From Diphasiastrum complanatum (taxonomy: Eukaryota > Streptophyta > Lycopodiopsida > Lycopodiales > Lycopodiaceae), in NCBI GenBank assembly GCA_029204225.1, contig CM055108.1, forward strand, positions 14,011,955-14,075,954: DNA of 64,000 nt, written 5' to 3'. Shown in pieces: positions 8,532 through 56,500 of this stretch. Below the pieces are notes generated by a model. That model was not told where the DNA came from. It made no database searches and saw only the letters and a list, made by a program, of their open reading frames with translations. The translations under genes and the position numbers were made by a program. Each line of letters begins with the position of its first letter. Within the stretch, counting starts at the first letter, position 1.

Positions 8532-8579
8532 CTTCGAGCTCTCGGGCTCCTCGACATAGGAAGAACTATTATCGTTCTC

Positions 8580-31410: not shown

Positions 31411-33252
31411 TTATGCACCCCTGAATCTCTTATCCAAAATAGGTCCTTTATGTTTAGGAGGGTCGCCACTCTTAGTAATTGAGATCAAGATCGAAAAGGT
31501 TTTGCCAGCATGTATATGGTGTACTTCACATGGCCCAAACCCCCATCAACCTCTTTTTGTTTGACTTGCTATTTTCCAATTTGATGGTAACTTTTTTTTG
31601 TTAAAGGCTTGTGCATTCTCAAGAATCAAGCTACTTTGGTTAATAAGCTCTTTCATGCATCTCTTTCTCTTGGTCAAACAATTGTTAATGCCCCTCTCTG
31701 GCTCTCACATGCCATTCTTTATGGTCAAATAGATACATGTTCACTACCTTGATACAAAAAAGGTCCTCTCACCCTCTAAGACTTGAAGGATATTATTGAC
31801 TCCCTTGGGCACAACTTATCCAATTCGACATTGTTCTTCTTTGAGTTATCCTTTCCACAAGTGGTTGTAGTGATTTTAGCATCATCACCACTTTCACCAA
31901 AGCCTCTTTTCTCCACTACTAGAGTCCTAAATTTCAACCCTCTTCCTTTGGGCATAGAAGCATCTACTTATGTAGTATCTTCTTTTTTCACCGATTTACT
32001 ATAGCTTAGAAAGGGATAGAGTGACTTTGCGTCTAGCTCAAAAAATTTATTATTTATCATTTGCAAAATACTCTATGAAAACATTTGTAGTTTTGCTTTT
32101 TGTACTATGTCAAAATGCTTCCTCTTAAACCAAATGGCCTTAAAAACATAAGGTAAAATTTGCCCATTTTGTCATGTAAAAAAATAATCTTATAGATGCC
32201 TTTGCCATAAGTATCAATCCGCACATGGGCAAGGATTCCAAACTGGGTGGGCAAGTCCCCAACTCAGGCATGCTACATCATTGTGCCACATGTTGGCTAT
32301 TACCGATTTTGTCAGTTTGCTAAAGAAATTGTGCAACAACTCCTTTTCTATTGGTTTTTTTCATTCCTCAATTGATTTACATAAATTTTGTGTCAAGTCA
32401 TTTCATGGGATATGTGTAAATTGTGCATACTTCGGTTGATCTAGCTACACAAAGGAGCCAAATTGATGTAACAGTCGTCCTTCCACCCTCAGTGTAGTAA
32501 CATGTTGGAAAGATGTTTTCATGCTATTTCGACTTATTGGTATTATTGGCCATGTGATGCCATGGTGAGCGGAGAACTTACTAAAGTTATTTTTGTTTTG
32601 CGTATGTTCGTAATAATAAATACAGCCTCTGTGTCATGTGTTAAGCATTTATAAGGATGAGCATTTAAGCGAATGTGCATGTCATAGGCCTGTCATAATC
32701 CGAGTGTGGTTTGATGTTAGAGAGAATCTTTTAATCATCCACAAGTTACAACATTCCTAGTAGTTATACCCTTGGATGGTTGTAGGCTCATGACTTTCAT
32801 GACATTCATCATTGCCTATACTCTTATTTGTATTTGTGTGACATTATTGTAACTTTTCCTAGTTAAGCTCTTTGTCTTGACTTATGTAGACCTTTTGGGC
32901 TAGGGCCCTTGAGATATTCCATTGGGTTCTAGGACTCATTGATTCTTGTTTTGGCTACATTTGGAAATAGTAGGTGAGCATTTCGAGTTGTTTCAAACTA
33001 AAAAATAAGCTTGTTTTGACACTTATTCAAATAAATTCTCAAACAAAACTACACAGAAAGAAACATTTATCATTTTGCATTGGCACGTTGAATTTGGTCG
33101 ATTGGCCAATTTTGCCCAGACTCTAGTTGTTTCCACATTGCAGTTGATGTCATGTTTTTTTTCTTCTTCCTTATTTCTTTCTTTTTTTGGACCTAAGGAA
33201 GGTTATGAGACTACCTTTTAGTTTCTTTCTCAATTTCTTTTACTTAACGCAT
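31411..33252. other. Non-coding stretch
   Basis: No gene supported. A faint tRNA-derived pattern on the minus strand at about 32225-32295 (GTTTGGAATCC resembling a pol III B box) is too weak to annotate separately. Confidence 0.5.
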
Positions 33253-33331
33253 GTTTGCTTCCAAGGGAGCTCCAATCTGGGATCAAAGAAACTTTGGATA
33301 CCAAGTTAACCAATCGAGCCAATGCCGTTGG
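33253..33331 (-). repeat. tRNA-derived SINE-like unit (copy 1)
   Basis: On the minus strand it has the same layout as the clearer copies at 51 kb: an A-box-like TGGCTCGATTGG, a middle CCAAAGTTTCTTTG and a degraded B-box region. It is a single, diverged copy. Confidence 0.55.
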
Positions 33332-34794
33332 ATTTCTTTCCTATCATGGAACTGCATTTAGACGAAGGTCAACACAATCTTCCTAGTGTCGAGACAAGCA
33401 TTGGAAGGCTATGTTTGTGATCTTCTTGTGCTTTCATGGTCATTGTCGGCGTCATTGTCAGGACCCCTGATTTTGAGGGCTAGTATCCATGTTCCCTTTA
33501 CAAACACAAAAACCAAAATTTAATTTTTTTCAAAGTAATGTATAAAAATCAAAGATTCCACTATTACTAGGTGCTTTGCACTTTGTATGTGCATTACCTA
33601 CATTTGGGCCTTGCATTTGGGAGCCTTATTAGGTTTTAAGGTGTATGCACCAGGATTCAATCCCGTGAACTAACTCATATCTAACTCCAAACAACAATTT
33701 TATAAAAAAAAAAAACCACAGAAAAACTTTTAAAAAAAAGTTAATTGTTGATTAGCCACGTGGCGAGTGGGCCTGGCCACACGTGGGTCATGACCCTGCT
33801 AATTTTGATCGGTCACGTGGACATCTTTGTCGTGGCTCACCTGACTCTTAGTAACAGGGTAGTTTCGTAGAACCCATCGCGGCCGTATGAGATAGCGGGC
33901 CTTGAACGTTGAAACTTGACAGAACGGCTGACTACCATCAACGGGCGCTTGCATGGAAGATGGCCCCCCATAAGAAAAAAGTTGCACCTTATAAAATCAT
34001 TCAGGGTCTATTTTTTGGACATTAGGTGTTGGTTCAATGTATTTTGAGATCCCCTTAGAGGCTTGAGTAGTCCCTTAAGATATAGATACCTCTTGGCCCC
34101 ATGGGCCTTGGGTTGCATGAGGATGAAAATCTCAGAGGCGGTTTGCCAGGTGCCCATCTAACGATGCAACTTTCTTGAAAGATTGCTCCCCCCCCCCCCA
34201 AAAAAAAAAAAAAAAGAGTTTGTTTTTATTGGGAAATGGATTGGCCTTTCAAATTGTGAATCTTGCCATAAAATATGGGAATGTGAAACCATGTTTTATG
34301 GCTCGATGATCGATGAGCTAAGTAAAACCTGTACCCTTAACTAAAGGATAGCCAATGCTATCCAAATTGGCTAGTTATCATCCATACTTCTGTCTACATT
34401 TCTCTCACATATTGTGGTGCTCTTTACAATTTGATTACGAAAGCTTCATTAAACGTGAAAAGGCCATGCGTCAAGTGAAGTTTGGCAAGGAGGGACAAGA
34501 GTCGAGAGTGTCATCCTGAAGGCTTGATTGAGGGAAACAATGTATGATGCCTAAGGGCAAGTACTTTTCTATGGTTTTTTTTTTTCTATGATGTAATTTG
34601 TAGAGACAAATTGCCCCAAAGTAATTAAGACTTTCCCAACTTCAAACCCAGATAGACTTTGATGATATAGAATCATCAAGGTCGATATTCATTTAGGATA
34701 TTGTATGAATTTATTTCCTTAATGAATTGAGTAACATGCATTGATACTTGTAGAACTAAGAATCTTCTATGAACTATGTTTGATGGTATTATGA
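33332..34794. other. Non-coding stretch with a poly-C/poly-A tract
   Basis: No gene supported. A run of C followed by A lies at about 34190-34216. Confidence 0.5.
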
Positions 34795-35808: not shown

Positions 35809-35818
35809 CAAACACACA

Positions 35819-35979
<161 letters not shown>

Positions 35980-36039
35980 ACCTTCTCCTGAAACCATGAT
36001 ATGCTCTTGAAACTGTTACCCATATGTAAGAATGGTTGA

Positions 36040-38480: not shown

Positions 38481-38566
38481 GTTTTTGTGCACCTAGCTTA
38501 GTTCTTAGACATGCACCAATCACTTCGGAGCACTACCTCTGTTCTCCCATGAGGGCTGTCGCGACC

Positions 38567-38570
<4 letters not shown>

Positions 38571-38660
<90 letters not shown>
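38571..38660. repeat. (CT)45 microsatellite
   Basis: An uninterrupted CT run of about 90 bp. Confidence 0.95.
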
Positions 38661-38661
<1 letters not shown>

Positions 38662-40650
38662 CAACGATGGTCGCCTTCCTCCTCATGCAATAGCTCGTTT
38701 TTGCATGATTATGTGGCATTTTCAAGGCTGTTTGATGCCACAGTTGGCTGCGTCCTAGCTCTACAACCAGGAGGAGAATTACCAAATGAGATTTGGCCAT
38801 GAAACAACTGAGAACAGCTGGCTTTTTCGAAACACTCTAGTTTCATGCTATGAAACCCTTCATAGGTCCCTCTCGGGCAATTCTCAGCCTCTTTTTGAGA
38901 TTTTCTTTGCAGAAACAACATCCTTAAGGTCACTCTAGTCCTACCAATCTGATGGGACTGACAACATATGATTTGGTAAAGATTTCACTACAAATAGTCA
39001 GCTTTTCTGAAAGAAGGCAAACAACAACCTTGCAATTAGTAAGTTGGAAATTTGTCATTTATAAATGAACTGATAATAGCTAGAACCCAACCTAAGGCGG
39101 AATGTTGGGTTCCCAAAATTTTATCTTGGAGTTATTTCTGACTATTAGAATTGTTCATGAATGCAAGTTCTCTGTATTGAAATTAAGAGCTATGGCTTTA
39201 TTGTCCTTTATGCATTGGAGTGATTTGCTTTGCTATGTATCATACTATGTAGAGTTTCAGAGATCGTATATTTGAAAAATAATCAGAGTATGTGTAGCAT
39301 ATCGTATTTACACAAAGGTACAATAGGCTGTTATGGTGAAACTTATGGTTGAGGTTTATGTAGAATACAAGAGACATACATGGCCAAAAAGAACATGTTG
39401 GATAGAATGCGACTGTCCATTGGAATGCAATTATAGCCTAGAGATGAACGACTACAGTGCTAGCAGTTTTGAATCTTGAAAATGAGCTATCAGGCATTGA
39501 AGCACTCTACTTGGCTCATCATATGGTTTGGGTGATGTTCGCTCCTTTAGAAAGCTAGTATGCATCATGAATCACTCTAAACTAAGTTTCAGAGTTACTG
39601 TGAATCATTATAATTTTAGGCAAGAATTATTCTGCAAAAAGTTAGAAATACTTGTGGTTTATTATGAAGACACAGTCACTCTATATAGAGCTAATGTTAG
39701 GACACATGTGACAAACATTCATGATAGACAAAATTTGAAGATATTGTATGAATGTAAAATTGAAATAATAATGAAAAAATCTGAACATAGAGAAGTAGTG
39801 TCGAAGGTGTCATAGACCACCATGCACTATGTAGTAGATTTTCGGCTTTTTGTCGTTTCGCTTCGTCACCTTCGCGACAAAGTTGCAGGAGTTCACAATT
39901 TCTGACACACTAAATCAATGTAGTCGAATGTTGATCATTCATTCTACCAAGAACTAAACTACTTAGAAGCATTAAACCATAGACAACAATCTATAAATAA
40001 GAGTTGTGGAGGGCCTCTATGTCACATTTAGTAAATATTAAAGGCATCAAGAGACCTTGCAAATTTTAGATCTAAGCTTGTGGTGGGTGTCCCATTTTTT
40101 AATTTTTCCTTTCAAGGTTTCAAACGCGTTGAGGATGAGGACTAGCTGCGTATGATTATGGAGTGTTATGGGGCCCAACATTTCCTAATTTTATGTTGTG
40201 GCCGATTCGTTCTATAATCTCATTTTTATTTTTTTGGTGAAGAACGTAGCTAACTTTCTATTTAAAAATCAAATTTTTGTTTCTAATCAATAGAAAGTTT
40301 CATGTCAATGACAAGTTACAATATAGCTAACATAGCTTGCTCACATTTGAAGAGACTCTTATCTTCTCAATAAATAGTGCAACATCAACAATGACAAGTT
40401 ACAACATGATAAAATGCCACTTTGATGTCCCTCTATCAAGGCCAAAATAAAATAAAAATTCAAACTGTAGTTAGTAGAGAGAGAGAGAGTGGAATCTACT
40501 CATCCCAAGTGGCATTTGTCATAGCGTACTACCCTACAAGTTAGTAACTATCGACCTCTCTAAAAAGATTGAGGTAGATTGCATGTCAACATGGTTGTCA
40601 CCATTTCATAGCCTACTACCCTACATGTTAGTAACTATCGAACTCTCTAA
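38661..40650. other. Non-coding stretch
   Basis: No gene supported over 2 kb. The longest frame (39528-39815, 95 codons) shows no motif. A (GA)n run lies at about 40476-40490. Confidence 0.5.
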
Positions 40651-40973
40651 AAAGATGCAAATATATGCATTTTGATTTCCAAGGGGGCTCAAACTTGGGA
40701 CCAAAGAAACTTTGGATACCAAGTTAACCAAGTGAGCCAATGTTGTTGGATTGAGATTGCTCATATTGCTTTTTGGTTTCCAAGGGGAGCCTAGAACCTT
40801 GGGACCAAAGAAACCCTTGGATGTCAAGTTGACCAACCTCTTTGGGTGTAGATCGCTCATAATGCATCTTGGTTTCCAAGGGGGGGTTGAAACTTGGGAG
40901 TCAGGACCAAAGAAACTCTGGATGCCAAGCTAACCAACTGAGCCCACCTCATTGTATAGATCGCTCATAGTGG
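40651..40973 (-). repeat. Tandem array of three tRNA-like SINE units with spacer repeats
   Basis: Units lie at about 40669-40750, 40770-40848 and 40866-40956. On the minus strand they keep an A-box-like TGGCTCACTTGG (first unit), a central CCAAAG.TTCTTTGGTC and a degenerate B box. They are separated by a 17-bp direct repeat: GAGATTGCTCATATTGC (40753), TAGATCGCTCATAATGC (40849) and TAGATCGCTCATAGTGG (40957). A weaker relative precedes unit one. The repeats look like target-site duplications, as in the 51-kb array. Confidence 0.7.
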
Positions 40974-41149
40974 CCCGTCAAAGAGTACAGGACCTACTAA
41001 TCAAATACACCCACCCAGCTCACAACCTTCACCGATCAATCACACTCACTCTGTATATTTCATTCGGCCAAGAGTATGTAGCTAGGTGTCTCTCGCGGCT
41101 CGGTGCCTCGAGGGACCCTCTACATCCCATAGATGGTCTCAGTATAAGG

Positions 41150-41379
41150 GCTAAATATTTTTTATGAATTTTGAGAATTCTGTAAATTCGCTTGCTGCCA
41201 AATTTCAGACGGCGGATATTAAAGCTGACGAGTCAGGGGGCTGTTACTTTTTGACGGTCGAGATTATTCCAAACGAGCGGCGTAGATCTTCTCTGGCGTT
41301 AACGGCTTCTGTTAGTAGCTAATCAGGGATTAATTAGCGTAAGTGGTTTAGTTAGGGTTAATCCAGTTCGGTAATCTCA

Positions 41380-41425
<46 letters not shown>

Positions 41426-41430
41426 GGTAG
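41150..41430 (+). promoter_or_regulatory. Probable promoter and start region of the PI4K-gamma gene
   Basis: GC content rises here. A telo-box (TTAGGGTTA, 41352-41360) lies just before a CT-rich tract (41381-41422, about 20 units with one break). Telo-boxes and CT/GA tracts are common near transcription starts of plant housekeeping genes, and GA tracts can be bound by BPC factors. Placement is by inference, about 1.9 kb before the start codon, so an intron in the 5' untranslated region is likely. Confidence 0.4.
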
Positions 41431-43316
41431 AAGAGAAGAGAAGAGAAGAGAGATCTGACAGAAAAGTCAGGAAGACGATGGTGGGATCTATAATTTTCCA
41501 CGATCTGATACTCTCTTGATTGCTCTCTTACATCTCTGGGTTTCTGAGATCTGGCATTCTCGTGATCTCGTACCATCTTCCAGTTTTTGCATTGTTCGAG
41601 GGTGCTGCTTCCTTCGTCTTTCAGGAATCCTGTTTTGGACTTTTTGTGTTCAACGTTTCGGTCGGATTTGTTTGCATTCGTGAAAGCGCCTGGCTTTTCT
41701 TGCTCTCTGTTGCGGATCTGGTAGTGGGTTTGGTGTTCCGGCCAGATTTGTGACAGATCTGTGTTGGGTTTGTTGCATTCTCTCATCAGAGTCTAGTTTG
41801 CAACTTCGTGGTCTTAAGCTGTTATGGTGGTCTGCTTTCTTGCTAAGTTGTAGGGCTTTACTGGACGTTTATAGACCGAACGCTGAGGATGTTTAGTAGC
41901 TTATTATGGGAAAATTTTGCACGCATTGGTAGCTCAACACAGTGCAGATCTGGTAGTTGCTTGCAAACTGATGGAAGTTCCTCTTCAAGATAGTTCGATA
42001 TCATAGTCCCCTGATCTACAAGCTTGAACTTTGCATTCCGTGCTATGTATTGCCTCTGCCGTTCTATGATATGACATTGTACCTTGTGCCTTTGCAAAGT
42101 TCAACGTATATTTTATAATCTTAACAGACTTCATTGCTTATGTGTTTTTCCTGCTGTGAACTTGAAGATACCGAAGTAAGTCATAAGCAGATGCATTTTT
42201 ATCTCACAATAAGTAGGCCATAGAATTCTGCACGTTCACTTCATTCCCTCTGGCTATGGTTTCTGACTTTCTGTTCACAATACTTGGAATCTGTTGCAGG
42301 TAACATTTTGAAGGAACCTCATGAGATACCGAGGTTGAAGTGAGTCTCATGAAATACGAACATCTACTCCATCTTAAAGGCATTCCATTGCCGCTGAAAA
42401 AGTCCTTGCAATTCCCTGCGTGGAGTCTTAGAACGTCCCCGTGAGTGTTGAGTGGGATGTAACTTGTGTCAGAGAATCAATCGGCCGTTTTTGGTGCGAT
42501 TTGTTCTGACATGTTTTCAAGAGTCTCAAATCAACTCATAACGATTCCTTCTTAGCAAACAGGCTATCGGAAGAAAACAACTTCTTCTGAAGAAGAAATC
42601 TTGCATCTTATAGAAGGTACTACATTTCCAAGACTGTTATCGTTAACAAGTCACTGCTCCTACTCTTTGCCATTTGTGACTGCGAGAAAAATTGCCGGCA
42701 TTTTGATTAACTTGTTATGATTCCCAGAATGGCACTGTAAAAATCGGGAATGGCAGCGCTACCAGATTCCTGGATACCATAGAGATACAGAGCCACATCA
42801 CAAGATCTATGCCTGGCAAACAATCAAATCAGCTATTTGCTACTAGAACGTGGTTTGCAGTGTGTTTTACAGCCAGATCTGGACCTCTGAGAAGGTTCGC
42901 GCTATATTTAATAGGAAATGGAAATGGAGATCTTATTTGATGAACGTTGAGAGTTGAACAAGTTGCCAGATAGGTTTTCATTGGTGGAGTTATCATCTAT
43001 GTAACAAGGAGGGCGTATCAAGTGAACATGTAAAGTTCCTGATAACGTAAAAGTTGTCATAGGTGCTCGTTTTCTCCATGTTTTGTATATTGTTGGTCGA
43101 TCAATTAGGAACATTGCTATGTCAGAGGTGTAAGTTCTAAATCGAAGGAGGACCGGAGATGAGGCTTGGTTGATGAAACAAGCCCGTCCATAGTTGATTT
43201 TGTCAGTTTTCATCAAAATAGGTCCTACACTTGAGCCAGGTGACTGATAAAACTTGCTTGAGGGTTTCCAAAAATCTCCAAAGTTGTGAACACTCCGACG
43301 ATTTCAAGCGTCAAGT
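41431..43316 (+). other. Probable 5' untranslated region, perhaps with intron(s)
   Basis: No supported coding frame. TC/T-rich sequence with splice-like sites (for example a polypyrimidine tract and TTGCAG at about 42294-42299) suits a spliced leader. Exact exons cannot be fixed without transcripts. Several short upstream ATGs would have to be removed by splicing or bypassed. Confidence 0.4.
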
Positions 43317-45338
43317 ATGCCTCCTAATATGCAAAGCCCAGTGCGGATTCCAAATGCTGTGGCTGTCCGGGATGCCAGTCATGGTGGAATGGGACCAAAT
43401 ATCCAGAGTTCTTACATGCGAGAAGTTGGCCGTCGTCGCATCTTTGTACAGGTGGATACGGGAAATGTGCTTGGACTGGAGCTGGACAGAGACGAAAAAG
43501 TACAATCAGTGAAGAAGAAAGTGCAGGCAGCACTGTGTGTGCCGACTGAGCAGAGTTCCCTAGTCTTTGGAGATCACGAACTACAAAATGATTTGAGGCA
43601 GGTAAGAAATGACTCCCCTTTACTTCTTGCAAGAGGTTTGCAGAGAAGCTCCTCCACTCCCTGTCTTTCTCCTACATCTGAGGTTTCTAAGCCAAAGGAC
43701 TGGAGTCGACCAATAGAGCTTCTCGGTGGTCCAGACAATTGCTATACGATTAAGAAGCTGATCAGAGCATCAACTAAAGCGATTGAGAAGAGAATGGATC
43801 CTGTGAAAGCAGGTGGTGGTCTTGGCGGGGCTTATTTTTTTAAGAACAGCCGAGGGGAGAATATTGCCCTAGTTAAACCGACTGATGAAGAGCCATTTGC
43901 TCCCAATAATCCCAAAGGATTTGTGGGCAAGGTTCTTGGGCAGCCTGGACTCAAACGATCTATCCGAGTTGGTGAAACTGGTGTTCGGGAGGTTGCAGCA
44001 TATCTTCTTGATCATGAACGTTTTGCCAAAGTCCCAGCAACTGCTTTAGTAAAGGTCACCCACTCCGTTTTCAATGTTAATTTTGATACAGCTATGAGCC
44101 TTCGGAAAGGTGACGGACTTCCTGTAGCAAAAATTGCATCATTTCAGCAGTTCATTCAGCACGATTATGATGCCAACGATCATGGAACGTCATGCTTTCC
44201 TGTGAGCTCTGTGCATAGAATAGGGATTCTGGATCTCAGAATTTTTAACACCGATAGACATGCTGGTAACATCCTTGTGAAAAACCGTAGTGACGGACAG
44301 AGGCTTTTTGAAAAGAGACATCTAGGTGTGAATGAAAGTGTTGAGCTGATTCCTATCGACCATGGACTCTGCTTACCAGAGACTTTGGAAGATCCTTACT
44401 TTGAGTGGCTTCACTGGCCGCAGGCATCTGTACCCTTTTCTGAGGAAGAGCTTAGATACATTAACAAGCTGGAACCATACAAGGACGCCGAGATGCTCAG
44501 GGGGAAATTGCCGATGTTAAGGGAGGCTTGCCTGAGAATGCTGATTCTCTGCACTACATTTTTGAAAATGGGGGCATCTGCAGGTTTGTGTCTTGCAGAC
44601 ATAGGCACAATGATGAGCCGAGAAGTATGTGGGATGGATGAGGAAGCGAGCGAGTTTGAGACTGTCTGCATGCTCTCAAAGCTCGAAGTTGAGGACGTAT
44701 TGGCAGATGCAAGCGTTGAGGGTGAAAAGACGTTCACAGATTGTTCTTCAGAAGAGCAACTTCTTGTAGATCAGTTTCAATTCCACATGGAGCTTGGAGA
44801 GTCTTGGGATGGATTTTCAGATTCTCAAAGCATGCTGCTGGGTTTTTCTCCAAGTTTCTCCTCGTGTTCGGGATATTCATCGCCATCCACTCTTTCACCC
44901 AGGACATCCATCTATACATGTTACGATTCTCTTTCCTTCCAGCACAAATTGCAGCCTCTAGAGGAGGAAATAACAGAAACCTCCGCTATCCCCATTAAAG
45001 CCGTCCCCACTGCAAGTTACGAACAACTGCACAGTCCAGATAAATTGGGAGCTGTGCGTAGTCTAAGCTACATGGGAGGCAATCATCAGTCTTGTAGCCA
45101 TTTGAAGATGAAAAAGATTGGCAATGTGCATGGCAACTCGGTGAAATCGGCATCGGATCCCACTCATGTCTTAAAGAACACCTCAAATGCAAATCTTACC
45201 TTCCTCTCAGACATGAGTGAAAATAAATGGCGGTTGTTTGTGGAGTACTTTCAGGAACTTTTGCAGGATGCATTCACCAATTGGAAGAGTAAGAAGGCGA
45301 GCCTGTCCCAAAAACTGGGAACTTCTTGCCAATTCTGA
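43317..45338 (+). CDS. Ubiquitin-like-domain phosphatidylinositol 4-kinase gamma (PI4KG5/6/7-like)
   Basis: An intact, intronless frame of 673 codons. Residues about 38-106 form one ubiquitin-like domain (RRRIFVQVDTGNVLGLELD, ending NDSPLLLARG). A Ser-rich SSSTPCLSPT linker follows. The PI3/PI4-kinase-like domain begins near 165 with a Gly-rich loop (GGGLGGAYFFKN), the probable ATP lysine at 187 (ALVKP), catalytic loop NTDRHAGN (Asp313) and the DFG-equivalent DHG at 348-350. It ends with the family tail WRLFVEYFQELLQDAF and LGTSCQF. One ubiquitin-like domain and about 650 residues fit plant PI4KG5/6/7. Arabidopsis relatives are reported to act as Ser/Thr protein kinases linked to ubiquitin-proteasome factors, with weak or no lipid kinase activity, so the real substrate is uncertain. 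The first ATG is chosen because its N-terminus matches the family. Confidence 0.95.
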   Translation: MPPNMQSPVRIPNAVAVRDASHGGMGPNIQSSYMREVGRRRIFVQVDTGNVLGLELDRDEKVQSVKKKVQAALCVPTEQSSLVFGDHELQNDLRQVRNDSPLLLARGLQRSSSTPCLSPTSEVSKPKDWSRPIELLGGPDNCYTIKKLIRASTKAIEKRMDPVKAGGGLGGAYFFKNSRGENIALVKPTDEEPFAPNNPKGFVGKVLGQPGLKRSIRVGETGVREVAAYLLDHERFAKVPATALVKVTHSVFNVNFDTAMSLRKGDGLPVAKIASFQQFIQHDYDANDHGTSCFPVSSVHRIGILDLRIFNTDRHAGNILVKNRSDGQRLFEKRHLGVNESVELIPIDHGLCLPETLEDPYFEWLHWPQASVPFSEEELRYINKLEPYKDAEMLRGKLPMLREACLRMLILCTTFLKMGASAGLCLADIGTMMSREVCGMDEEASEFETVCMLSKLEVEDVLADASVEGEKTFTDCSSEEQLLVDQFQFHMELGESWDGFSDSQSMLLGFSPSFSSCSGYSSPSTLSPRTSIYTCYDSLSFQHKLQPLEEEITETSAIPIKAVPTASYEQLHSPDKLGAVRSLSYMGGNHQSCSHLKMKKIGNVHGNSVKSASDPTHVLKNTSNANLTFLSDMSENKWRLFVEYFQELLQDAFTNWKSKKASLSQKLGTSCQF

Positions 45339-45368
45339 GTGCAAAAAGTTTTGTTCTTACCTTGTAGC

Positions 45369-45409
<41 letters not shown>

Positions 45410-45710
45410 GAGAGAGACAGAGCGGGGGGGGGGAGAGGGGGGGAGAACGGGAGTTGGGGTGTCTTGGCTCAAGTTTTGAGCAGGTTTCTGTTTGTTAGAC
45501 TTTGTTACTGTAAGATAAGCTAGTGTAAAAGAAAACAAACCTGGTACAGCAGTTTTCTCGTTTCGTGTTTTAAAGGAAAGGAGTATGCTGAAGACACTAT
45601 TTTACTAGTCATCAGGTAGATTGTGTATGCTGTATAGGTGCAAGTTACCATAGTTTGGGCTGTAATAAGTGCAAGTTACCATAGTTTGGGCTGTAATAAA
45701 TCAGTCTGTA
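45339..45710 (+). other. PI4K-gamma 3' untranslated region with (GA)n and polyadenylation signal
   Basis: An imperfect (GA)n and poly-G tract occupies about 45373-45445. A 30-bp unit (GTGCAAGTTACCATAGTTTG and the next 10 bases) is duplicated at 45638-45667 and 45669-45698. AATAAA at 45695-45700 is a candidate polyadenylation signal. Confidence 0.5.
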
Positions 45711-47010
45711 AGAGAGATCTAGTGTTCAGATATTTGAACTTTGTACACATTTCAAAGTTATATAAAGTTAAACAAGGCACATCTGTTTAGAGCACTGGTT
45801 TTTGTGCAATTGGCAATTTTTGAGATTTAATGTTCCTATAAGTTGAGGCCTGTTTTGTGCAATTGGCAATTCTTGAGATTTAATGTTCTTAGAAGTTGAG
45901 GCTTGCTTTAGTTGATTGAAGTGGAAGCCAACTGACATACTCCTGGTAAGCTCACCATTGCTGACAGTTTGTAGTTGACGCTGTCTCTCCTTGATTTCAG
46001 TCTCTTATTCTCCTATTGACTTTAATGGAAGCAGTCATATATCAAGAGCCAAAGCCTAGCATACGACTAGAAAACAACAATTGCATGAATTTCAAGTGTA
46101 TCTGTTAGACCGTGCACATTAAAAGGAAAGTGCTACAAAGACTTCAAAAGGAAATTGTGGGCACAACCACTTTGTTACGCATGTAATTTTTCATTCTTTA
46201 ATAGCATCCTCCCCTTTGTTAAATGTTTATAGTAGAGATGTGTGAGGTTGATAAGTACTAACCCTTCCACCACCTCTCTGAAATCTAACCATTGAGGAAA
46301 GATGTTCCAATGTAAAATCATGCACCTGTATTCACCAGTGATTTTATGGAGAATGCACGCAGGTGGCAGGATTCTGTAAAGTTAAGAATCTTAACTCTTT
46401 GAGTTAATAGATAACAGGCCTTCCCAGGCCCGTTACCTTTCGTTATTAGCAGGGTTTTGATATACGGTTTTGAAAACATAGAGCGTAGAGGTTACGTATA
46501 CGGTTTTCGGTACAATGGAGAAGCCGTCGCTCATAAATCACTGATAGAATGCTGGAATCGCTGCAACTCATAGAATGCTGGAATCACTGCAAGGGAGGGT
46601 TGATCAGCGTTGTCTCAGAAGAACCAGAGTAGTTTGAATGCCCAGAAATCGCTGCAATGGAGAAATCGCTGCAATGGAGAAAAGTGAAGTATCTGCTGTT
46701 AGCCAGTATGTGCTGATTGATCTGATTGATTGAATAATCGCTTTTGAAGCTTTTGTGCCCCGTGGCATTGCCTCTTTTGGGCGGTTAGCCCTCCTAGAAA
46801 ATCAAAATATTCTACCTGAGAAACAAGAGGCTGAACATCTGCACGCTGTTGGGAATAAGAATTCCTGGTCTGAATATCATCCGATTGAAGCTACATTGTT
46901 TTTCTGACTGTTGTAAAGTACTGTCAATTATCATTTTGTGTGGCTGTAGCCTTGTATACCTCATGAACACGGAAAGATTGGAGGACTAAAGGAGTATCGT
47001 CGAGGCGAAG
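45711..47010. other. Non-coding stretch with small duplications
   Basis: A block of about 45 bp (GCAATTGGCAATT.TTGAGA) is present twice at about 45813-45903. TAGAATGCTGGAATC.CTGCAA and AAATCGCTGCAATGGAG are each duplicated at 46545-46680. No gene supported. Confidence 0.5.
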
Positions 47011-47145
47011 ATGGAAAATGTGGATGGTTTGCTTTGCACAGAAAATATGCTTGGAAGTCCCTGGGGCGATGAAGAAACGGTTGGGTATTTTTCAGACGAG
47101 GAGAACAATGACAATCCTCATTTGTTTCCCAATTTTCCTGTATAA
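47011..47145 (+). CDS. Short LxCxE-containing frame, possibly a D-type cyclin first-exon relic
   Basis: A 44-codon frame begins MENVDGLLCTENMLGS and continues acidic (WGDEETVGYFSDEENND). LLCTE fits the LxCxE motif that binds retinoblastoma-related protein, and plant D-type cyclins carry such a motif very near their N-terminus in an acidic context. The frame ends at CCT|GTATAA, so a splice donor could precede the stop. No cyclin box is seen downstream. It may be a relic, a first exon, or chance. Confidence 0.3.
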   Translation: MENVDGLLCTENMLGSPWGDEETVGYFSDEENNDNPHLFPNFPV

Positions 47146-47711
47146 TTTGTGTATGTATAAAAGTGTGTATACATATTAGTATACAGATCTTTATGCAAAT
47201 CGTATACAATTTTTCTTTACATACAGAGTGGCAGATTATGGCGTTTAAAAAGTCCGTTTTAAGCCCGTTATCAGCAGGCCCTGTATGGTGTAATTAGTTT
47301 CATTAAACAGTATCAATAATGGGCAGAAAAGTCACATGTGCTCATTTAGGGGAAGGGGAGGCTGGGTGCTTGTAACTGTGTCGTTTATTGTTTCAATTCC
47401 AAAGTTGCCTTGGCAGGCAGGACTACATGTTCCGGAAAACGTTACCCTAATCAATGGGTCATTCTTGTTGCTACTTGTAAAATCAATGTCATATTTTTAC
47501 AAAGGAATTGAACACACCTCCTCAGCCGCAATGCATCTAAATTTCTTTAGATGCACTTTCCAAGCATCCGAAGGTGCATGTAAATTTTTTTGACCTTTTA
47601 CTCGAAAGGTGCGTGTATGAAAAATTTATGACAAAAAAAAGTTCAAATAAATATAAAAAGTGTTTTCACTTTGAGGGAGATCCTTCCTCGGAAGAAGGGC
47701 CTTGGAAGGGG

Positions 47712-47712
<1 letters not shown>
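47146..47712. other. Non-coding stretch
   Basis: No gene supported. Confidence 0.5.

Positions 47713-47754
<42 letters not shown>
47713..47754. repeat. (CT)21 microsatellite
   Basis: An uninterrupted CT run. Confidence 0.93.
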
Positions 47755-47760
<6 letters not shown>

Positions 47761-47892
47761 TTTGTTTTATGAAGAAAAGGGAGTGCCTCCCATAGTAAAA
47801 TTTGTGAACAAGTTTTCTTTTTAAAAGCACGTGCAACTTCAACTTTTGACACCTGGAAGGTGCATGTAAAAAAAAGGATATCCAAAGCTAGC

Positions 47893-48175
47893 CATGACCA
47901 TGGCCTAGGGGAGATTTATGTAGTCCTCAATTGTAAGAAACATCTCTTGAAGGAGCTGGTCGTGAGTGACCATGGCCTAGGGGAGATTTTTGTAGTCCTC
48001 AATTGTAGGAAACATCTTTTGCAAGTTGTAGAACACATTTCACATTATCGTTGTGTCATGTCTGAGAGAAAGGTAAGTTTTCAAAAGTTTGAATAAGAAG
48101 TTTGCTAGTTTTTAAACATTTCAATTAGAAGTTTGCTAGGTTTTAAACATTTCAATAAGAAGTTTGCTAGTTGTT
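47893..48175. repeat. Two adjacent tandem duplications
   Basis: A block of about 62 bp containing GACCATGGCCTAGGGGAG occurs at about 47893-47955 and 47968-48030. GAAGTTTGCTAG plus TTTTAAACATTTCAAT then recurs at about 48090-48170, three times in part. They lie just left of the hAT element. Confidence 0.75.
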
Positions 48176-48316
48176 CGAATAGTTTACAAGGCTTCTAGAA
48201 TCTATGGAAATTTTTCTAGCTTATGAGAATGCTTGTGCTCATAAAACAATTTCAACCTTTTATATATATATATATATATATATAGATATATATGTACACA
48301 CAAACACACATATGCA

Positions 48317-48334
48317 CAGCCTTGAAATTTGACC
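48317..48334 (+). repeat. hAT left terminal inverted repeat
   Basis: 18 bp, starting CAG; the exact complement lies at 52234-52251. Confidence 0.85.
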
Positions 48335-50275
48335 GGGTATTATAGGTCAAAACGATTTTGAAACTTAAAAAAAATGGTAATATTAAAAAGTAATTAGATT
48401 TTGAAAGTTAAAATTTATAATTAATTAGTCAGCTTGAAAGTTAAATTTCTTTTTAACCAGTAAAAAAAAAGTCTACTTTTTTTCTTGTTATGGTCACATT
48501 CTTGTGACAGGCAGCAGGCCAGGCGCATTGGGCTGGTCGTTGTACCCTATGCCATATGGGGCTTGTGTCGTGGCACTGTATTCTGTGCGCTGCTCTGCCC
48601 GCAGAATGAAGTCAACCGTCACTGAAATTTGAATGCTCTCTGAAAGTTGTCATTGAATGAAAAGTTTGAAGGTGGAACTTAGAAACTTATGAAAACTTCA
48701 AAAAATATAGAGGTTCGAAGTTTCCATAACGTCTTAAAAAAATTATATATATTCTATCATGATTCCTGCGTGGGCACTGGGCACTTGGCCGTGGGCGCTA
48801 ACCGTCTGACAAGGAAACTTATCAAATTTCAAAGTTGGGTCCAGATTCCAGACTTCAGACTCCGGCCTCTGAATCTTTGATGATTAATCTGATCCTGCGT
48901 GGGCACTTGGCCGTGGCCCGTGGCGCAGAAACTTTTCAGTTTTCAAAGTTCGCTCCTGCCTCTGAATCTTTGATGATTGATCTGACACGTCTCTTTCAGT
49001 TTTCCTGCTGACTCTTGAGTCTTGACTCCTGAGGACCGCACTCTTGCAAGACACGTCTCTTTCAGTTTTCTGCTACTCCTGAGCACCGGACTCTTCGTAG
49101 TGGTCGTGGGCAGCGAGGATGAGCAATGAGCATTGAGAACATGGAAGGCTGAATCTGATCATCGATTTTTAGCAGTTGCTGTTTCCAAGCACGTACGTTA
49201 GTTTGACACGGCGAGGAAGGCTTTTCACACTCCAGAGTCCAATCTCGATTCTCTGTTCTCATCTGCTACCAGCCAGCCTTGGCTTTTCACGCTCATCATT
49301 GCAAGAAGTACATACTACGAACTACATTACTAGGTAATTTTTTCACCTTAAGCAACTAATAAGTGAAAAGGAAGATGTTTCCAACAACTTTGCTTGTATC
49401 ATAGCTCCTTCACGTGCAGGCCTCTAAAACTTTGTTGCAAAGTTCTAACTTCTATTGTAACGTCTTGTTAATGGCTAGAAGTTTTTTTAAAAAATTTGAA
49501 TGCACATGTGTGAAGAGTTGCTGTGTCTTTGTGAAAGCCTTTGGAAAGTTTATTAGAGAGTGAAACATATTATAAGGCATGTAATTAAAGAAGAAGAAGC
49601 CATTTTTACTACTAATTAGTTAGGGAGTTGTCAAAAAAAGACTAGTCACTGAAGGCATGCTACAGTAGTACGTGGTGGAGTCCTAGTCTGTAAATGATGG
49701 TGGCAGAGCTACTAGACAATATTGTATGCTAGAATACAATAAAGTGATCATGTGACATGCCACTAGTTTTCCTTTATTTTGGCAAGCCAACTATGGATAA
49801 CATAACTTTTCTCAGAGTTATGGTTTTTTTCTGCTCAACCTTCATTTCTTTTACTCTAGTCTTTGACTAGATGACGTATTAATTGACGCACATAATACTG
49901 TGTGTATAAGGCTTTGCATTTTTCAACTTGCTTTAAAATTTACACTATAGTCTACAACCCCAATTCCCATCTATTCATTACAAACAAGGTTGTTGGCACC
50001 TTAATTTATATTATAGACTTAAATTATTGCATACAATATTGTTGACACCTTAATTTCAATCCTATTGTAGATCGTATGAACTCTTGACCTTTTGAAAATA
50101 ATATATTTTACATTATGCTTTGAGATATTAAAATATTGCTTGTTAGCTACAAAGCCTATGACTCATGGAGGCATAGGTAAGATCTAAATGTTTCTCTAGA
50201 ATCAAAAGCATACGACCATTTTAACTTGAAAATGTTGTTGTTTCAGGGTCTAGGTCTGATTGCCTTATCAGAATC
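48335..50275 (+). other. hAT 5' non-coding half with direct repeats
   Basis: About 1.9 kb before the transposase frame. Direct repeats include CCTGCGTGGGCACT.GGC at about 48765 and 48893, CCTCTGAATCTTTGATGATT at about 48866 and 48958, and GACACGTCTCTTTCAGTTTT at about 48983 and 49050. An (AT)n tract lies just outside, at about 48260-48290. A good splice acceptor (TTGTTGTTTCAG, about 50235-50246) precedes the frame, so a 5' intron is plausible. Confidence 0.55.
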
Positions 50276-51867
50276 ATGTCTTCTTCTAGGATGGGCAGAC
50301 CCAAGAAAGATACTTCCCAAACAAAACTATTAACGTTCTTGAGAGGTGGTTCATCTTCATCTTCTACACCAACTAAGGAAAATGAAGCTGAACTAGAATC
50401 AATTGAAACAATAGAACTAAGTGAACATGTAGCTAAATTCAAGAGAGTAGTTCCACATTTGATTGGAATCCACTGTATCGCTCATAAAGAAGCTCTTGCG
50501 GCAAGAGATGCAAGTGCAAAAATGGATGGGCTACATTTCATTGATAAGCTGGCAAATGATGTGTATGGGTGGATTGGAATGTCAATCAAGCGTCACCAAC
50601 TTTTTGAAAGTGCATTTCAAGAATTTGAGGATCACAAGCTACAGCTTAAAAGGTATGTGAATACAAGATGGTTATCAAGAGGAGAAGTTATAGAAAGGTT
50701 GGTGCAAATCATGCCATCACTTCTAAACCTTATGTGCACAGAAGACGTAAGGTTATATGACGTCTTGACTATATTTCAAGTTCAGTTTTTCTTGCATCTT
50801 CTAGCTGATATACTTATAGAACTTAATAAGTTAAATAAAAAGTTTCAAGAAGATCACATAGATGTGACCCTTATTGGTATGCAAATTGATTTGACAATTA
50901 ACATTTTGAAAAAACGATATATGAAGCCAAATGGAGAGTTCGGTCTAGGAGCAAAACATATCACATGGTTTTTACAAAATGCTGCTTTAGGGACTCTTGA
51001 GTCCAAAAACAAAGATGGCCAAGTACACACACACTTCTTGAGATTTGAGAAGATGCCCCAATGCACTCAAGGAGGATCTTTAGAGGATTGCATTTTGTTG
51101 GGTCGAGAATATGTGCAAAATGTGGTGGATGCCTTAAACAACAAATTTTTAGATTTGGCACTTTTCAATTCAGCAAAATTGTTTAGCCCATCTCATTATC
51201 ATAAGCAACATGATGCACGAAAAATGTACACCACCCAATGGTTAGAACAAATGTTGGAAAAGTTTAACAGCTGCACATTTTCTTTCATTGTTAACGTCGA
51301 GCGACTACGTGGCGAACTTGATTTGTTTGTGGACACATTGTGGTTAGCATGTGCTGGAAAGGGAATGCATGAAGCATGGGAACAATGTGCAAATGTTAAA
51401 GAATGCTTCTTGGTTTCCAAGGGGAGGCTCGAACCTGAGACCAAAGAAACTTTGGATGTCAAGCTAACCAACTAAGACAACCCCGTTGGGTGCAAATGTT
51501 AAAGAATGCTTCTTGGTAACCAAGGGAAGGCTCGAACCTGAGACCAAAGAAATTCTGGATGTCAAGCTAACCAACTGAGCCAACCCCTCATGATGCAAAT
51601 GTTAAAGAATGGCATGAGAACTTTCCTCAACTCATGAAGCTGTGGCAAATGGTTATAGTTATTCCTACAAGCACATCGTCTTGTGAGCGAGGATTTTCTA
51701 AACAAAATCATATCAAAGTTGATGGTCGAAGCAGATTAGGCATTGATCTTCTTCAAGCTTGCATGAGAATTTCTTTAAATGGCCCAACTATCAGTGATGT
51801 AGAGTGGTCTACTGTTTTTGAGCTTTGGAGATGTTCAAAAGATCGTAGAATAACCAATTTGGAGTAG
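50276..51867 (+). pseudogene. hAT transposase, N-terminally short and interrupted
   Basis: An open frame of 399 codons reads a Ser-rich N-terminus, then VPHLIGIHCIAHKEALAA, YVNTRWLSRGEVIERL and the helical insertion region (GMQIDLTINILKKRY). The hAT family expects a zinc finger (BED or similar) and the first catalytic Asp before these blocks; both are absent. At ANVKE (about 51405) the frame runs into inserted SINE sequence and stops at 51475. After 51611 the original reading resumes as WHENFPQLMKLWQM and the hAT C-terminal dimerisation segment TSTSSCERGFSKQNHIK. It recalls the ZNF862-like hAT group. The protein would cut and paste the element if intact. Confidence 0.82.
51388..51611 (-). repeat. 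Two tandem 85-bp tRNA-like SINE units between three 18-bp target repeats
   Basis: TGCAAATGTTAAAGAATG occurs exactly at 51388-51405, 51491-51508 and 51594-51611. Between these lie 85-bp units at 51406-51490 and 51509-51593. On the minus strand the second unit has an A-box-like TGGCTCAGTTGG and a B-box-like GGTTCGAGCC about 40 bases apart, as in tRNA genes and tRNA-derived SINEs. The 18-mer is also the coding sequence that joins the two halves of the transposase, so it is the duplicated target. No tail or LINE-like 3' part is seen. Confidence 0.82.
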
Positions 51868-52233
51868 ATGAAAATTGGAATATATTTGGAGTTCTTAATA
51901 GAATTGACAATGGACTTCGAACAATGTACCCTTCCAACTTTCAATTTTATCTTTTTATTGTTGTGTTGTATCTCGTTGTTTGAGACTCAAGTTTTGTGTG
52001 ATTTATGATTCAAATGTTTTTCTTTCAAAAGTTAACTTTTTAATGTAACACTTGTAGTGACAGAGCTTTTTTATGAATGGTTAAAATTATTTTACAACAT
52101 GCTTGAAGTCTATATATGTTTTGAAAGGTGGTTTTGTTTTGGGCATGTCATTTGAAAGTCATATTTTAAGGTTAAAGGTTTTGCTGAAAGTCATTTAAAA
52201 TTTTAAAGTGTCAATTTGAAAGTTGAGAGTGAA

Positions 52234-52251
52234 GGTCAAATTTCAAGGCTG
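52234..52251 (-). repeat. hAT right terminal inverted repeat
   Basis: GGTCAAATTTCAAGGCTG, the exact complement of the left end. Confidence 0.85.
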
Positions 52252-52523
52252 CACGTGCATATCACTTTCATGATGGGAGTGGGAAATTGATTGAATAAAC
52301 CTATAATTAAAATCTCACTAAATTATATAAAGATAAAAAAAATTCTAACTTTGAAACAAAGAGGCGAAATGTTAATGTCAAAAATTGACCTGCATGTCAA
52401 TGCCAACAAATGGCTTGTAAGGTTATATTACATTTTTTGGGCAACGCTCTAAAGGTAACCCTTGTCGGTGAAAGGTCCTCTGGAAGTTACATGATACCAT
52501 CATGGCACGGAACTTCTAAAATG

Positions 52524-52605
52524 CTTCTTGGTTTCCAAGGGGAGGCTCGAACCTGAGACCAAAGAAACTTTGGATGTCAAGCCACTACCTTAACTAAAGG
52601 ATTGT
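52524..52605 (-). repeat. tRNA-derived SINE-like unit (copy 7)
   Basis: About 60 consecutive bases match the 51406-51490 unit without a visible difference (GGTTTCCAAGGGGAGGCTCG through GGATGTCAAGC). The A-box end diverges after that. It lies about 270 bp right of the hAT end. Confidence 0.75.
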
Positions 52606-53809
52606 GCAACATTTTAGTATCACTAGATTATGTGGAAATTCATATTCCTTTTGCCAATGCATGGTGCAATGGTGCACGATGCTTGGTGTGGGCTTGCCGA
52701 GCCCATTGAAACACGAGGAAAAAGAATTACATTTCTTTGGACTTTTTAGGTTGCTCAAAGATTTGGCAAATTTATCAATTCTTCAACATAAGCTATATGA
52801 AAGTGAGATGTCAAAATTTTGAAGTCCATAGAAATACTTAGAAGCAAAACTATGGCCTTTCCCAACATGGAATCACAGTCTGAGTTTCATTTATCACATT
52901 TCCTTGTCAAGCTAGCACATCACATAACCTTCAATTCAAAAGGTTGTGTGAAAGAGTAGCTCATATTAATTTTGAAATCTTGATGGAGAAGGTTGCGATA
53001 GAAGTTGTGTTAAAAAAGGAGGCATTATTTACGACCTCCAATAGTATGTTAACAAGTAGGAGGATATAATTCCCTATAAATGTCAAGACTTTTGTGGCTC
53101 ATAAGGAAATTTCACTCATAAAGTATAATGCTTTGTTAATCCTTCACACTTTGGAAACAAGTTTTTGGTGACATTTGCAAAAGCTTCAACTATCATAAAT
53201 TTAAGTGAAGTCCAATAAGTGGTAAATAACATCATGGGACATAAAGGGCATGCAAATTTTATTGAAAACTTTTTTTGTATTCTATTGAATATAGTGTAAG
53301 CTTTACAACTTACCAAGTATGTGACTTGTTTTGAACATGACATTTCCACCATGGCAGGTGTTTTAAATGCAAGGCAAAGTTCAATGTATTGGGCTTTGCC
53401 TTTATCAAGAGATTTTATACAAACTTTTATAGCTTACCAAGCACGTAAAAATTTTGGGCATGACATGTCAGCCATGTTAGAATTTGATTTCACACCAAAT
53501 TCATTCTCTCACAGCTTGCAAAAAACTTTTTGAATTTTGCCTCAAATAAAAGTTTGCATAATCTTGAACAACGTCAAACCTATAGAAGTCAACAAGAATA
53601 TGCTACAGTTTTGAACCCCTCAAAAATACTCATTATTTTGCAACGAGTTTGAGCTCAAGAAGAGTATTCAATAATCACACAATCATTAGCATGAATGCTA
53701 ATACACAATAGAGAAGAAAACCACAATCCATGTATTACTCTAAAGAGGAAGATACAATCCCGAAGATAGAGAGAGAAAAAGTTTAGAAATTTAGAGGATT
53801 ATGGATTGG
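52606..53809. other. Non-coding stretch
   Basis: No gene supported. Confidence 0.5.
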
Positions 53810-54955
53810 AGTGATAAATTGCTGCACAATGTCTGGGCTTTGGCAGTACTTTTTAAATTTGGTAGAGATGTACTCTCCACCGTTGTCAGACCTCAGGGCT
53901 TTGATCATCTTTCCAGTCTCTTTGCTCCTTGAAGATTTTGAAGCAATTAAAAACCTCTGAATTCTTCTTGATAAAAGACACCATAGTTCTTCTGGAGAAT
54001 TCATCAATAAAAGTTATGAAATACTTTGCATTCTTCAAAGAAGCATTCTGCATCGGGCCACAAATTCTTAATGTACAACATCTAACAATCCTCTAGCAGT
54101 ATGCTGATGGCTTGATCTGAATGGTTTCCTAGTCTATTTATCAACTATACAGTCTTGACAGACATGTAATTCGACTTTATTATCAGGATAGTCTAGATCA
54201 AGAATAGTAGAATGTTTGGACATTTGTTGTATATAAGCATGATTCAAGTGACCAAGTCTATAATGCTAAAGTAAACTTTTATCTGCTTGAATAGAAGTAC
54301 TGAGCACCTGACTAGAGGCAGAAAAGCAATGACTTAATCTATACAAGTATCCATGCCTCTTTTCGAGTGCTAGGATCTTGCCTGTCCTATCAACTACTTT
54401 GCATTGATCACATTCAAATTTTACTTTATGTCCTAGATCTGTGATTATGGTTACAGAGAGCAGGTTTGTAGACAAATTGGGTACATACATGACTTTAAAA
54501 AGTAGCTTAGACTGATCATTTGCAAAGCTTAATCTTATAGTACCTTCACCTTTAATAGCTTGTGTGCTATTGTCGCCAAGGTGAACATATTTGTTGGTAT
54601 TGTAGGGTGTATAGGACTCAAAATAGCCAATGAGACTGGCCATATGTTGAGTGGCACCGGAATCCAGAAGCCAAGAACTATCGTTGGATGCTCCTTGATG
54701 GCTGGTCATGAAGGCATCATGATCCGCTTCTTGAATTGGTTGTGGAGCTTCTGTAGCTGCATTGGCCACTTGATTTGACTGTCCCTTGATGTTGTTTTTT
54801 GCTTGTAGTATCCATCATTCTTGAATCTCGCGGTTGTTTCTCTTGCAGTATCTGCAAAACGGCTTCTTCTTAGTTTGCGGATTTGAATGTTCTTTGTGCT
54901 GTGTTGGTTTCTGGTCTTGACAGTCGAGTTTTTTTCTTTTGCCTGTCTTATTTTA
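53810..54955 (-). pseudogene. Copia-G: gag end, protease and partial integrase
   Basis: From right to left: a zinc knuckle FCRYCKRNNREIQ (about 54815-54862), with its final Cys lost. Then a clean 167-codon frame (54266-54769) with SSWLLDSGATQHMAS (protease), LLFKVMYVPNLSTNLLSV and YLYRLSHCF. Further left, interrupted by stops, are ICGPMQNASLKNAKYFITFI and IKALRSDNGGEYIS (second integrase Asp). The element is cut at about 53810, before the catalytic Glu. It is a close relative of Copia-A and shows what Copia-A lost. Confidence 0.8.
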
Positions 54956-55045: not shown

Positions 55046-56500
55046 GGATCCGTGAATGCCGTGATCTTTAGACTGAGCAATGCACAACATTTGTTGTGTG
55101 CATTAACACTTAATGCCTTCGTGAATATATCTACAACCATGTCCTATATTCTATAGTACGTTAAGCTCACCTCCTTGTTGAGAACCTTGCCCCTGATGTA
55201 GTGATATCTGATTTCAATGTGCTTACTCCTAGAGTAAAATCTAGGGTTGGCCGATAAGGCAATAGCACTTTGATTATCACAGAATAAAATTGCGAGGTTG
55301 TACTGATACAAATTAATGTCTGATAGTAAATTTCTCAGCCAAAACGCTTCCTTAATAGATTGAGAGACAGCAATGTATTCTGCTTCCATAGAAGAAAGTG
55401 CGATAGAGGTTTGCTTACGACTGTTCCACGAGATAGGACCGCCATTGAAGAATAATGTAAATCAAGATGTGGACTTACGATTGTCTACATCTCCTCCCCA
55501 GCTTGCATCAGAACATCCACTAAGCTGATGAAGATTGTCGTTGTTGACATCTCCATAGCAGATGCATTGGTCCATGGTAGCTTGAATATATCTCATGATT
55601 CTTATGAGAGCCTTCCAATGGGTAATGTCAGGATTAGCCATATATTGGCTGAGTGAGCTTACTGCAAAAGAGATATCTGGTCTTGTACAGTACATTGCGT
55701 ACATGAGAGATCCAAGTATCAATCGATAAGGATACTCTCTCATCTGCTCCTCTTCTTGCTTGGTCTGGGGACATTGGTCCTTTGACAAATGCAGGTCTGG
55801 ATCCATCGGTAAGTGAGCTAATTTACAATTCATTAGATTGTATCTGTTAAGAACATTGTGAAGATACCTTTGTTGAGTGATGTAAATCAGTCGTCTCACT
55901 CTGTCTCTGTGGATCTGAATGTCCAGACAGAAGTGAGCTTCACCCAGATCAGTCATGTCGAACTCTGAAAACAACATCTGTTTAGAATCCTTGACCAAAT
56001 TGGTATTGTTGCTGAAGAGCAACGTATCATCCACGTATAAGGTGATGATAATGAAGGATTGTTGCACTAACTTGGAATAGACGTTACAATCAGCAGTGCT
56101 TGGTTTGAATCTTTGTCCGATGAGGAATGTGTTGATCCTCTAAAACCAAGCTCTGGCAGACTGTTTCAAGCCGTAAACTGTTTTGTGGAGTTTATAGACA
56201 TGATTTTTCATACCTTCCAAAAAGTATCCTTCGGGCTGGATCATGTAGATGTCTTCTTTCATTCAAATAAGCTGTTTGTACATCAAGTTGATGTACTTCA
56301 AGGTCGGCAGCTACATCATAAGACATGAGTGTTTGGATTGATGAATGTTTGACTACTGGACTAAAAGTCTCGCTGTAGTCAATGTTGGGGATCTGAGTGA
56401 ATTCTAGTGCTACCAGTCTTGCCTTCCTTCATGTTGGAAATTAACCCCATAGTTGTCTCCTTGGTGAATGACTAGTTTCTATTTCATGATTCGTCCTGCA
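55046..56500 (-). pseudogene. Copia-H: reverse transcriptase and RNase H
   Basis: From right to left: a degraded RT N-terminus with VHQLDVQTAYLNE, then an intact palm (FIIITLYVDDTLLFSNN). Next come GEAHFCLDIQ, MNCKLAHLPMDPD, YPYRLILGSLMYAMYCTRPD and GDVNNDNLHQLSGCSDASWG. RNase H follows with MEAEYIAVSQSIKEAFWLRN, LFCDNQSAIALSANP and DIFTKAL. Frameshifts lie near 56160 and 56250 and stops near 55460 and 55145. Copia-F at 37 kb is a piece of the same family. Confidence 0.82.

Follow-up and report, generated by a model that had tools for sequence, protein, structure and literature searches.

The window, by which we mean the whole analysed stretch of DNA (64,000 nucleotides of Diphasiastrum complanatum), contains a hAT-type transposase frame that is interrupted by two short units alternating with three copies of an 18-bp repeat. 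This transposase locus comprises the following features:

50225..51475, plus strand: upstream part of the hAT-type transposase frame, counted from stop to stop; it enters unit U1 and stops there
51388..51405, unstranded: first copy of the target repeat, TGCAAATGTTAAAGAATG; it shares the reading frame of the upstream hAT coding part
51406..51490, minus strand: unit U1, 85 bp, with A box TGTCTTAGTTGG, B box GGTTCGAGCC and a 3' hairpin
51491..51508, unstranded: target repeat copy 2, an exact match to the 18-mer
51509..51593, minus strand: unit U2, 85 bp, A box 12/12 and B box 10/11; its 5' hexamer is unlike that of U1
51592..51864, plus strand: downstream part of the hAT transposase, with the C-terminal dimerisation domain PF05699 (E 2.1e-06)
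51594..51611, unstranded: third copy of the target repeat; it shares the reading frame of the downstream hAT coding part

The three identical 18-mers and the two 85-bp units had been noticed in the preliminary description, and all of them proved exact in position and sequence. Tandem Repeats Finder called the array, with a period of 103, at 51388–51611. When up to 3 mismatches were allowed, the 18-mer TGCAAATGTTAAAGAATG had 4 matches in the window; shuffled sequence gave 0.17 on average and never more than 1. The two units, equal in length, differ at 12 of their 85 positions.

The upstream hAT part by itself matched no Pfam family. Joining the two flanks at one 18-mer restored 478 codons with no stop, and the joined frame aligned without a gap over the insertion site with three relatives (P0121, P0122, and P0123). 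Seven transposase hits were obtained in total; P0126 was also aligned and ends before the site, and P0124, P0125, and P0127 were left out. Because the joined frame is open and gap-free with its relatives, one 18-mer represents the target as it stood before insertion and two arose by its duplication, which confirms the earlier view that the 18-mer supplies the joining codons of the split transposase. Between 50225 and 50460, the frame lacks, as judged by eye, part of the N-terminal region present in P0125 (PF14291), perhaps as a result of an internal deletion. Two of the seven hits carried a species name, in both cases Selaginella moellendorffii.

Elsewhere in the window, an open, intronless phosphatidylinositol 4-kinase gamma frame (PF00454, PF00240) lies at 43314–45335 on the plus strand and shows 56% identity to its two best full-length relatives. 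In a tree of 22 sequences chosen from 120 listed, this frame grouped with lycophytes in a set of four (SH-aLRT 95), the join to Diphasiastrum being a long-branch pair. The original assignment of the DNA to a plant was therefore right, and the tree and the hAT relatives add a lycophyte affinity. Remnants of LTR retrotransposons occur on both strands at 8001–8579, 11245–11772, 20092–21453, 25506–29039, 54266–54814, and 55462–56139. Pfam RVT_2, rve, or Pol_BBD was found in 9 of the 10 ORFs scanned for such remnants, which we take to be of the copia type on account of RVT_2. Long, uninterrupted runs of the CT dinucleotide, together with a compound tandem array with a period of 20–72, are located at 35821–35976, 38570–38659, and 36051–36285.

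A profile search of the window detected seven units, that is, U1, U2, and five more at three further loci. All seven have minus-strand sense, and all lie between 33 and 53 kb. Counted by number of modules, as the preliminary description proposed, the window holds one single-unit locus, one array of two units, one array of three, and one truncated copy. The further features are:

33250..33332, minus strand: unit B1, standing alone, with 17-nt flanks that may form an old repeat (11/17)
40668..40750, minus strand: unit A1 of the second array (array A), from the profile search
40751..40768, unstranded: array A spacer repeat TTGAGATTGCTCATATTG
40769..40846, minus strand: unit A2, part of the A-box region absent, from the profile search
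40847..40864, unstranded: array A spacer repeat TGTAGATCGCTCATAATG
40865..40954, minus strand: unit A3, with extra bases ahead of the B box, from the profile search
40955..40972, unstranded: array A right-hand target repeat TATAGATCGCTCATAGTG
52524..52582, minus strand: unit U3, 5'-truncated, 59/59 identical to U1, about 1 kb downstream of the transposase array

Array A (40668–40972) thus consists of three units with 18-nt spacers of its own. When the 15-nt cores of these spacers are scored at one another's places, 13 to 15 of the 15 positions agree, a level that no more than 0.1% of 35-nt stretches drawn at random from the window attain. On the left side of array A no clear repeat copy was found (ungapped, 7 or 8 of 15), and a degenerate left repeat was rejected, since its gapped score was near chance (0.044–0.086). 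A 51-bp direct duplication (94%) is present at 40519–40569 and 40606–40656, the second copy ending 11 nt before A1. The match of 11/17 at B1, in a register picked by eye, was equalled by a fraction of 0.0018 of random 17-mers from the window. Around U3, no perfect target repeat was seen by eye. An inverted 8-mer, CTAAAATG / CATTTTAG, is present in the flanks of U3 at 52516–52523 and 52610–52617; it may be due to chance or may be a sign of 5' inversion. Compared with one another at E up to 0.01, the flanks of the four loci (287–445 bp) share no match, so the repeated entity is the unit itself, with sharp ends. In both arrays the spacer length is 18 nt, and each unit is located 18 bp from the next.

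The sense strand of the units, as indicated by their A and B boxes, is the minus strand. In a scan of both strands of the 64 kb, the top box pair was that of U2 (22/23), followed by those of U1 and A3 (21/23). Among 20 Markov-resampled windows, none reached 22 and three reached 21, and the number of box pairs scoring at least 19 was 41 in the window versus 13 to 38 in the resampled ones. The boxes of U2 (A 12/12, B 10/11) are separated by 32 nt. Those of A2 (9/12 and 9/11) and B1 (10/12 and 8/11) are weaker. The best A-box match starts 11–12 nt past the unit start in U1, U2, A1, and A3. For A2 and B1, it lies at another position and is weaker. TTTT was absent from all six units scanned (all except U3).

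The units had initially been described as tRNA-like. Their A and B boxes bear this out, but ancestry from a tRNA received no call from default ARAGORN or Rfam. With default settings, ARAGORN detected no tRNA in the whole window or, under the standard code, in the three unit regions. With -ps50, these regions together yielded five calls, of which four fall largely on U1, U2, A2, and A3, a count obtained without a shuffled control. At gathering scores, Rfam matched nothing in the window; with E values up to 10 accepted, there was no tRNA match in the searched part, 51300–52700, outside which array A and B1 lie. A cloverleaf tRNA gene was rejected on the grounds that default predictors make no call and that RNAalifold yields a central stem and a 3' hairpin. 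The boxes fit a tRNA parentage, which is putative; no particular tRNA was singled out as the parent.

The units carry no A/T or simple-repeat tail at the 3' end: U1 and U2 end in ..CCAAGAAG directly before the repeat, and the remaining units end alike, with no run. The absence of a tail noted earlier was therefore upheld; as a correction to the earlier description, a terminal 3' hairpin follows the B box. The RNAalifold consensus comprises a central stem and this hairpin (TTGG AAA CCAA; CTTGGAAACCAAG), three of whose four pairs form in 7/7 units and the fourth in 6/7. When five units were folded singly, U1, U2, and A1 formed rods, A3 did so partly, B1 folded otherwise, and none formed a cloverleaf. 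The fold z-scores were -1.18 (U1), -1.54 (U2), -2.84 (A1), -0.48 (A3), and 0.14 (B1); fold stability is notable for A1 alone.

The distribution of the units was explored in twenty 10-kb stretches of the same assembly (ten on C1, one each on C2–C11); one further locus of 200 bases (L001) consisted entirely of N. The profile search found units in none of the 20 stretches, even at E up to 20. A blastn search of the sample at E up to 1 returned ten matches of 16–21 bp (E of at least 0.025), which were taken as chance. Nine of the 20 stretches have repeats in common with the window at 78–92% identity, which fits a single genome. The result of 0/20 implies that the family averages no more than about one locus per 67 kb (95% bound), and hence that the window is locally rich in units: seven of them (four loci) lie in 20 kb, at 33250–52582 and in one orientation, versus none in the 200 kb sampled. 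An exact 27-mer of the unit had no match in either viral_contigs or genome_contigs, as expected for a plant element. No LINE domain was detected in the 12 ORFs scanned out of 17 long ones in the window.

The class of element to which the units belong was considered on this basis. Part of the unit is an imperfect palindrome, and the units might be foldback or MITE-like DNA elements, their boxes being by-products of the palindrome. Such a reading would accommodate the clustering, which is more like local hopping than retroposition, and the high pairing of the rod: in the seven-unit alignment, 88.7% of cells pair in the rod of A1, which was derived from A1's own fold and is thereby favored in that unit, whereas sliding the partner by one column gave 66.0% and 58.0%, and slides of 1–3 columns never exceeded 66.0%. 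However, both-side changes occurred at two pairs only, and shuffles of the 3' letters equalled the observed rod measures in 166, 248, 93, 477, and 28 of 500 cases, that is, in at least 28/500 on each of the five measures; the rod is thus without covariation support. The target duplications known from DNA transposons are far shorter than the 18 bp found here. Since, moreover, U3 lacks only its 5' side and the top Pol III box pair of the window is that of U2, a foldback or MITE-like nature is scarcely probable. From its sequence, the unit is most likely a minimal, tail-less SINE-like retroposon of about 85 nt, its A and B boxes forming an internal promoter of Pol III type. SINE target-site duplications are described as 8–16 nt, generally 10–20 nt, long (PMC8825457). 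The transposase locus has an exact 18-bp target duplication of the kind expected for a SINE; the 18-bp repeats of array A have diverged, B1 has 11/17, and none is visible by eye at U3.

The sequences at the transposase locus point to two separate insertions at the same site (probability roughly 0.55). The principal alternative, possible but doubtful, is a single insertion followed by duplication of the 103-bp module through slippage or unequal exchange between the 18-bp repeats, and then by divergence or gene conversion; the unit hairpin possibly aided such a duplication. The preliminary description had put forward both options. Repeated use of the site was supported, whereas amplification of a unit-plus-target module at this locus was less so, in view of the 12/85 differences between the units, their unlike hexamers, the identical 18-mers, and the undecayed frame.

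Against module copying stands the occurrence of 14% unit divergence beside unchanged spacers. The probability of 12/85 differences between the units with no change in 3 x 18 spacer positions was 0.0155, rising to 0.08 when the hexamer was left out (7/79 versus unchanged spacers); Fisher tests of spacer versus unit variation were not significant (0.12 and 0.34). With the spacer change set at its 95% upper bound (0.054 per site), at least 12/85 differences would arise in place with P=0.20 and at least 7/79 with P=0.76. The spacers by themselves are therefore not decisive, and spacer identity alone would allow module copying. The flanking frame provides a second measure. Divergence in place would be expected to introduce 4.4 stops (2.8 without the hexamer) into this frame, with a probability of 0.009 (0.063) of no stop, under an assumption of neutrality and with the frame counted from stop to stop; the frame is in fact open. 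At an assumed one indel per ten substitutions, 11.2 indels (6.8 without the hexamer) would also be expected, yet the frame is open throughout.

The 5' hexamers of U1 and U2 likewise speak against copying of one module. Of the 12 differences, five fall within this hexamer (P=1.3e-4 in a post hoc test). This concentration would follow if the A box fixed where the RNA begins and the flank of the source supplied its first bases.

The relationships between units bear on the same question, since U1 is closer to U3, and A1 to B1, than to their array partners. U2 and U3 differ at 5/59 positions, versus full identity of U1 and U3 over 59/59; U3 could be a copy of U1. A1 differs from B1 at 13/83 positions and from A2 and A3 at 15/73 and 15/82, respectively. 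An A1–A3 clade was weakly rejected (p-AU 0.037, one of seven groups looked at, uncorrected), and none of the three pairs inside array A was rejected at 0.05 (p-AU 0.0625–0.0956). The seven-row tree has no starred branch and groups A3 with A1 and B1. A sister clade of U1 and U2 was not rejected (p-AU 0.25), which leaves room for module copying.

Further observations are in favor of module copying. Short tandem duplications are frequent in this genome: Tandem Repeats Finder returned 39 rows in the 200-kb sample (period 17–120, up to 4.5 copies), the longest period being 86. The 51-bp duplication adjoins array A, and the imperfect palindrome of the unit could stall replication. In array A, units and spacers have diverged about equally (51/230 and 10/54), which makes the two readings hard to separate there. 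On the side of separate insertions, the right-hand pair of spacers in this array is the most alike (2/18, versus 4/18 and 4/18), the order that addition of units on the 5' side would produce, although three spacers are too few for proof.

A single event with two template jumps, from a unit RNA to the 18-nt target strand and then to a second, different unit RNA, would account for two unlike units flanked by identical repeats of the same age. The enzyme would, however, have to copy exactly one target stagger between the two RNAs, and the unequal repeats of array A suggest more than one date, so that this explanation appears improbable. A dimeric RNA template carrying the spacer was rejected, because spacers are unlike between the arrays and the spacer at the transposase locus matches the target.

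For the preferred reading of two insertions, we infer Pol III transcription and target-primed reverse transcription of the units. Pol III would start at a fixed point 11–12 nt upstream of the A box, the unit RNA would be reverse-transcribed from a nick in the target, and cutting of the second strand 18 nt away would produce the 18-bp duplication. Two such insertions from two different source copies would give the order repeat-U1-repeat-U2-repeat. As the insertion would preserve both the nick site and the 18-bp stagger, the site could be used again. The repeats start with CA in the sense orientation, mostly with CAT, but a preference for a few bases alone cannot place a second copy at the same base. 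It may be supposed that the Pol III promoter of a resident unit directs the next copy to a point 18 bp upstream of that unit's start; successive landings would then extend an array head to tail on the 5' side. Such a self-seeding retroposon, forming arrays of unlike units phased by target duplications, is a speculative and rather unlikely extension suggested by analogy. A resident unit as the beacon is preferred because non-LTR elements of social amoebae land at set distances from Pol III genes. The clustering in one orientation is unexplained by landing at resident units.

In the social amoebae, landing upstream of Pol III genes is described for TRE5 (40–54 bp), NLTR-B (39–64 bp), and NLTR-A (2–6 bp), and TRE5-A requires box B (PMC5911963). 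Retroposons positioned in this way, at a set distance upstream of Pol III genes, would parallel the landing supposed here. They differ in being protein-coding and in targeting real tRNA genes, and TRE5 inserts in the opposite orientation, whereas the landing pad supposed here is a copy of the element itself that shares its orientation.

Tandem SINEs are common, and the units may also be compared with multimeric tRNA-derived SINEs. Head-to-tail multimers make up 40% of B2 copies in the mouse, 49% of Dip copies in the jerboa (up to eight units), and 11.5% of Ves copies in the bat (PMC8466645). Those SINEs share with the present units the formation of multimers from short Pol III-transcribed units, transcription being predicted here. 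For B2 multimers, the source leaves open whether insertion into the tail or dimeric templates were involved (PMC8466645). The units at the transposase locus differ from B2, Dip, and Ves in that an exact 18-bp target copy separates them and they have no A tail. Precise parallel SINE insertions, within 1 nt, have been reported at 0.18–0.29% in whales and 0.01–0.04% in primates (PMC10531181). They resemble our case in that two independent insertions share one place; as described there, they occurred in separate lineages, whereas here the insertions would have piled up on a single chromosome, at one or two of the four loci. Helenus, a TRIM with a tRNA-like LTR, a 4–5 bp target duplication, a primer-binding site, and a polypurine tract (PMC10886601), likewise places a tRNA-like sequence, in direct repetition, on both sides of a middle part; here, by contrast, what lies in the middle is the 18-bp target itself. 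A TRIM of the Helenus type with the 18-mer as its inner part was rejected, as the 18-mer is target coding sequence that occurs outside the units as well. In the literature searched, which consisted mainly of titles and abstract openings and included few subscription papers, no description of SINE arrays spaced by copies of the target was found.

In conclusion, the arrangement at 51388–51611 is real and unusual and represents a variant form of multimeric SINEs. An exact target copy between unlike units, in a broken frame that has not decayed, offers a means of distinguishing re-insertion from copying. Should re-insertion at resident copies prove general, retroposons would have a route to building tandem arrays, and Pol III promoters would be linked to site choice in a land plant.
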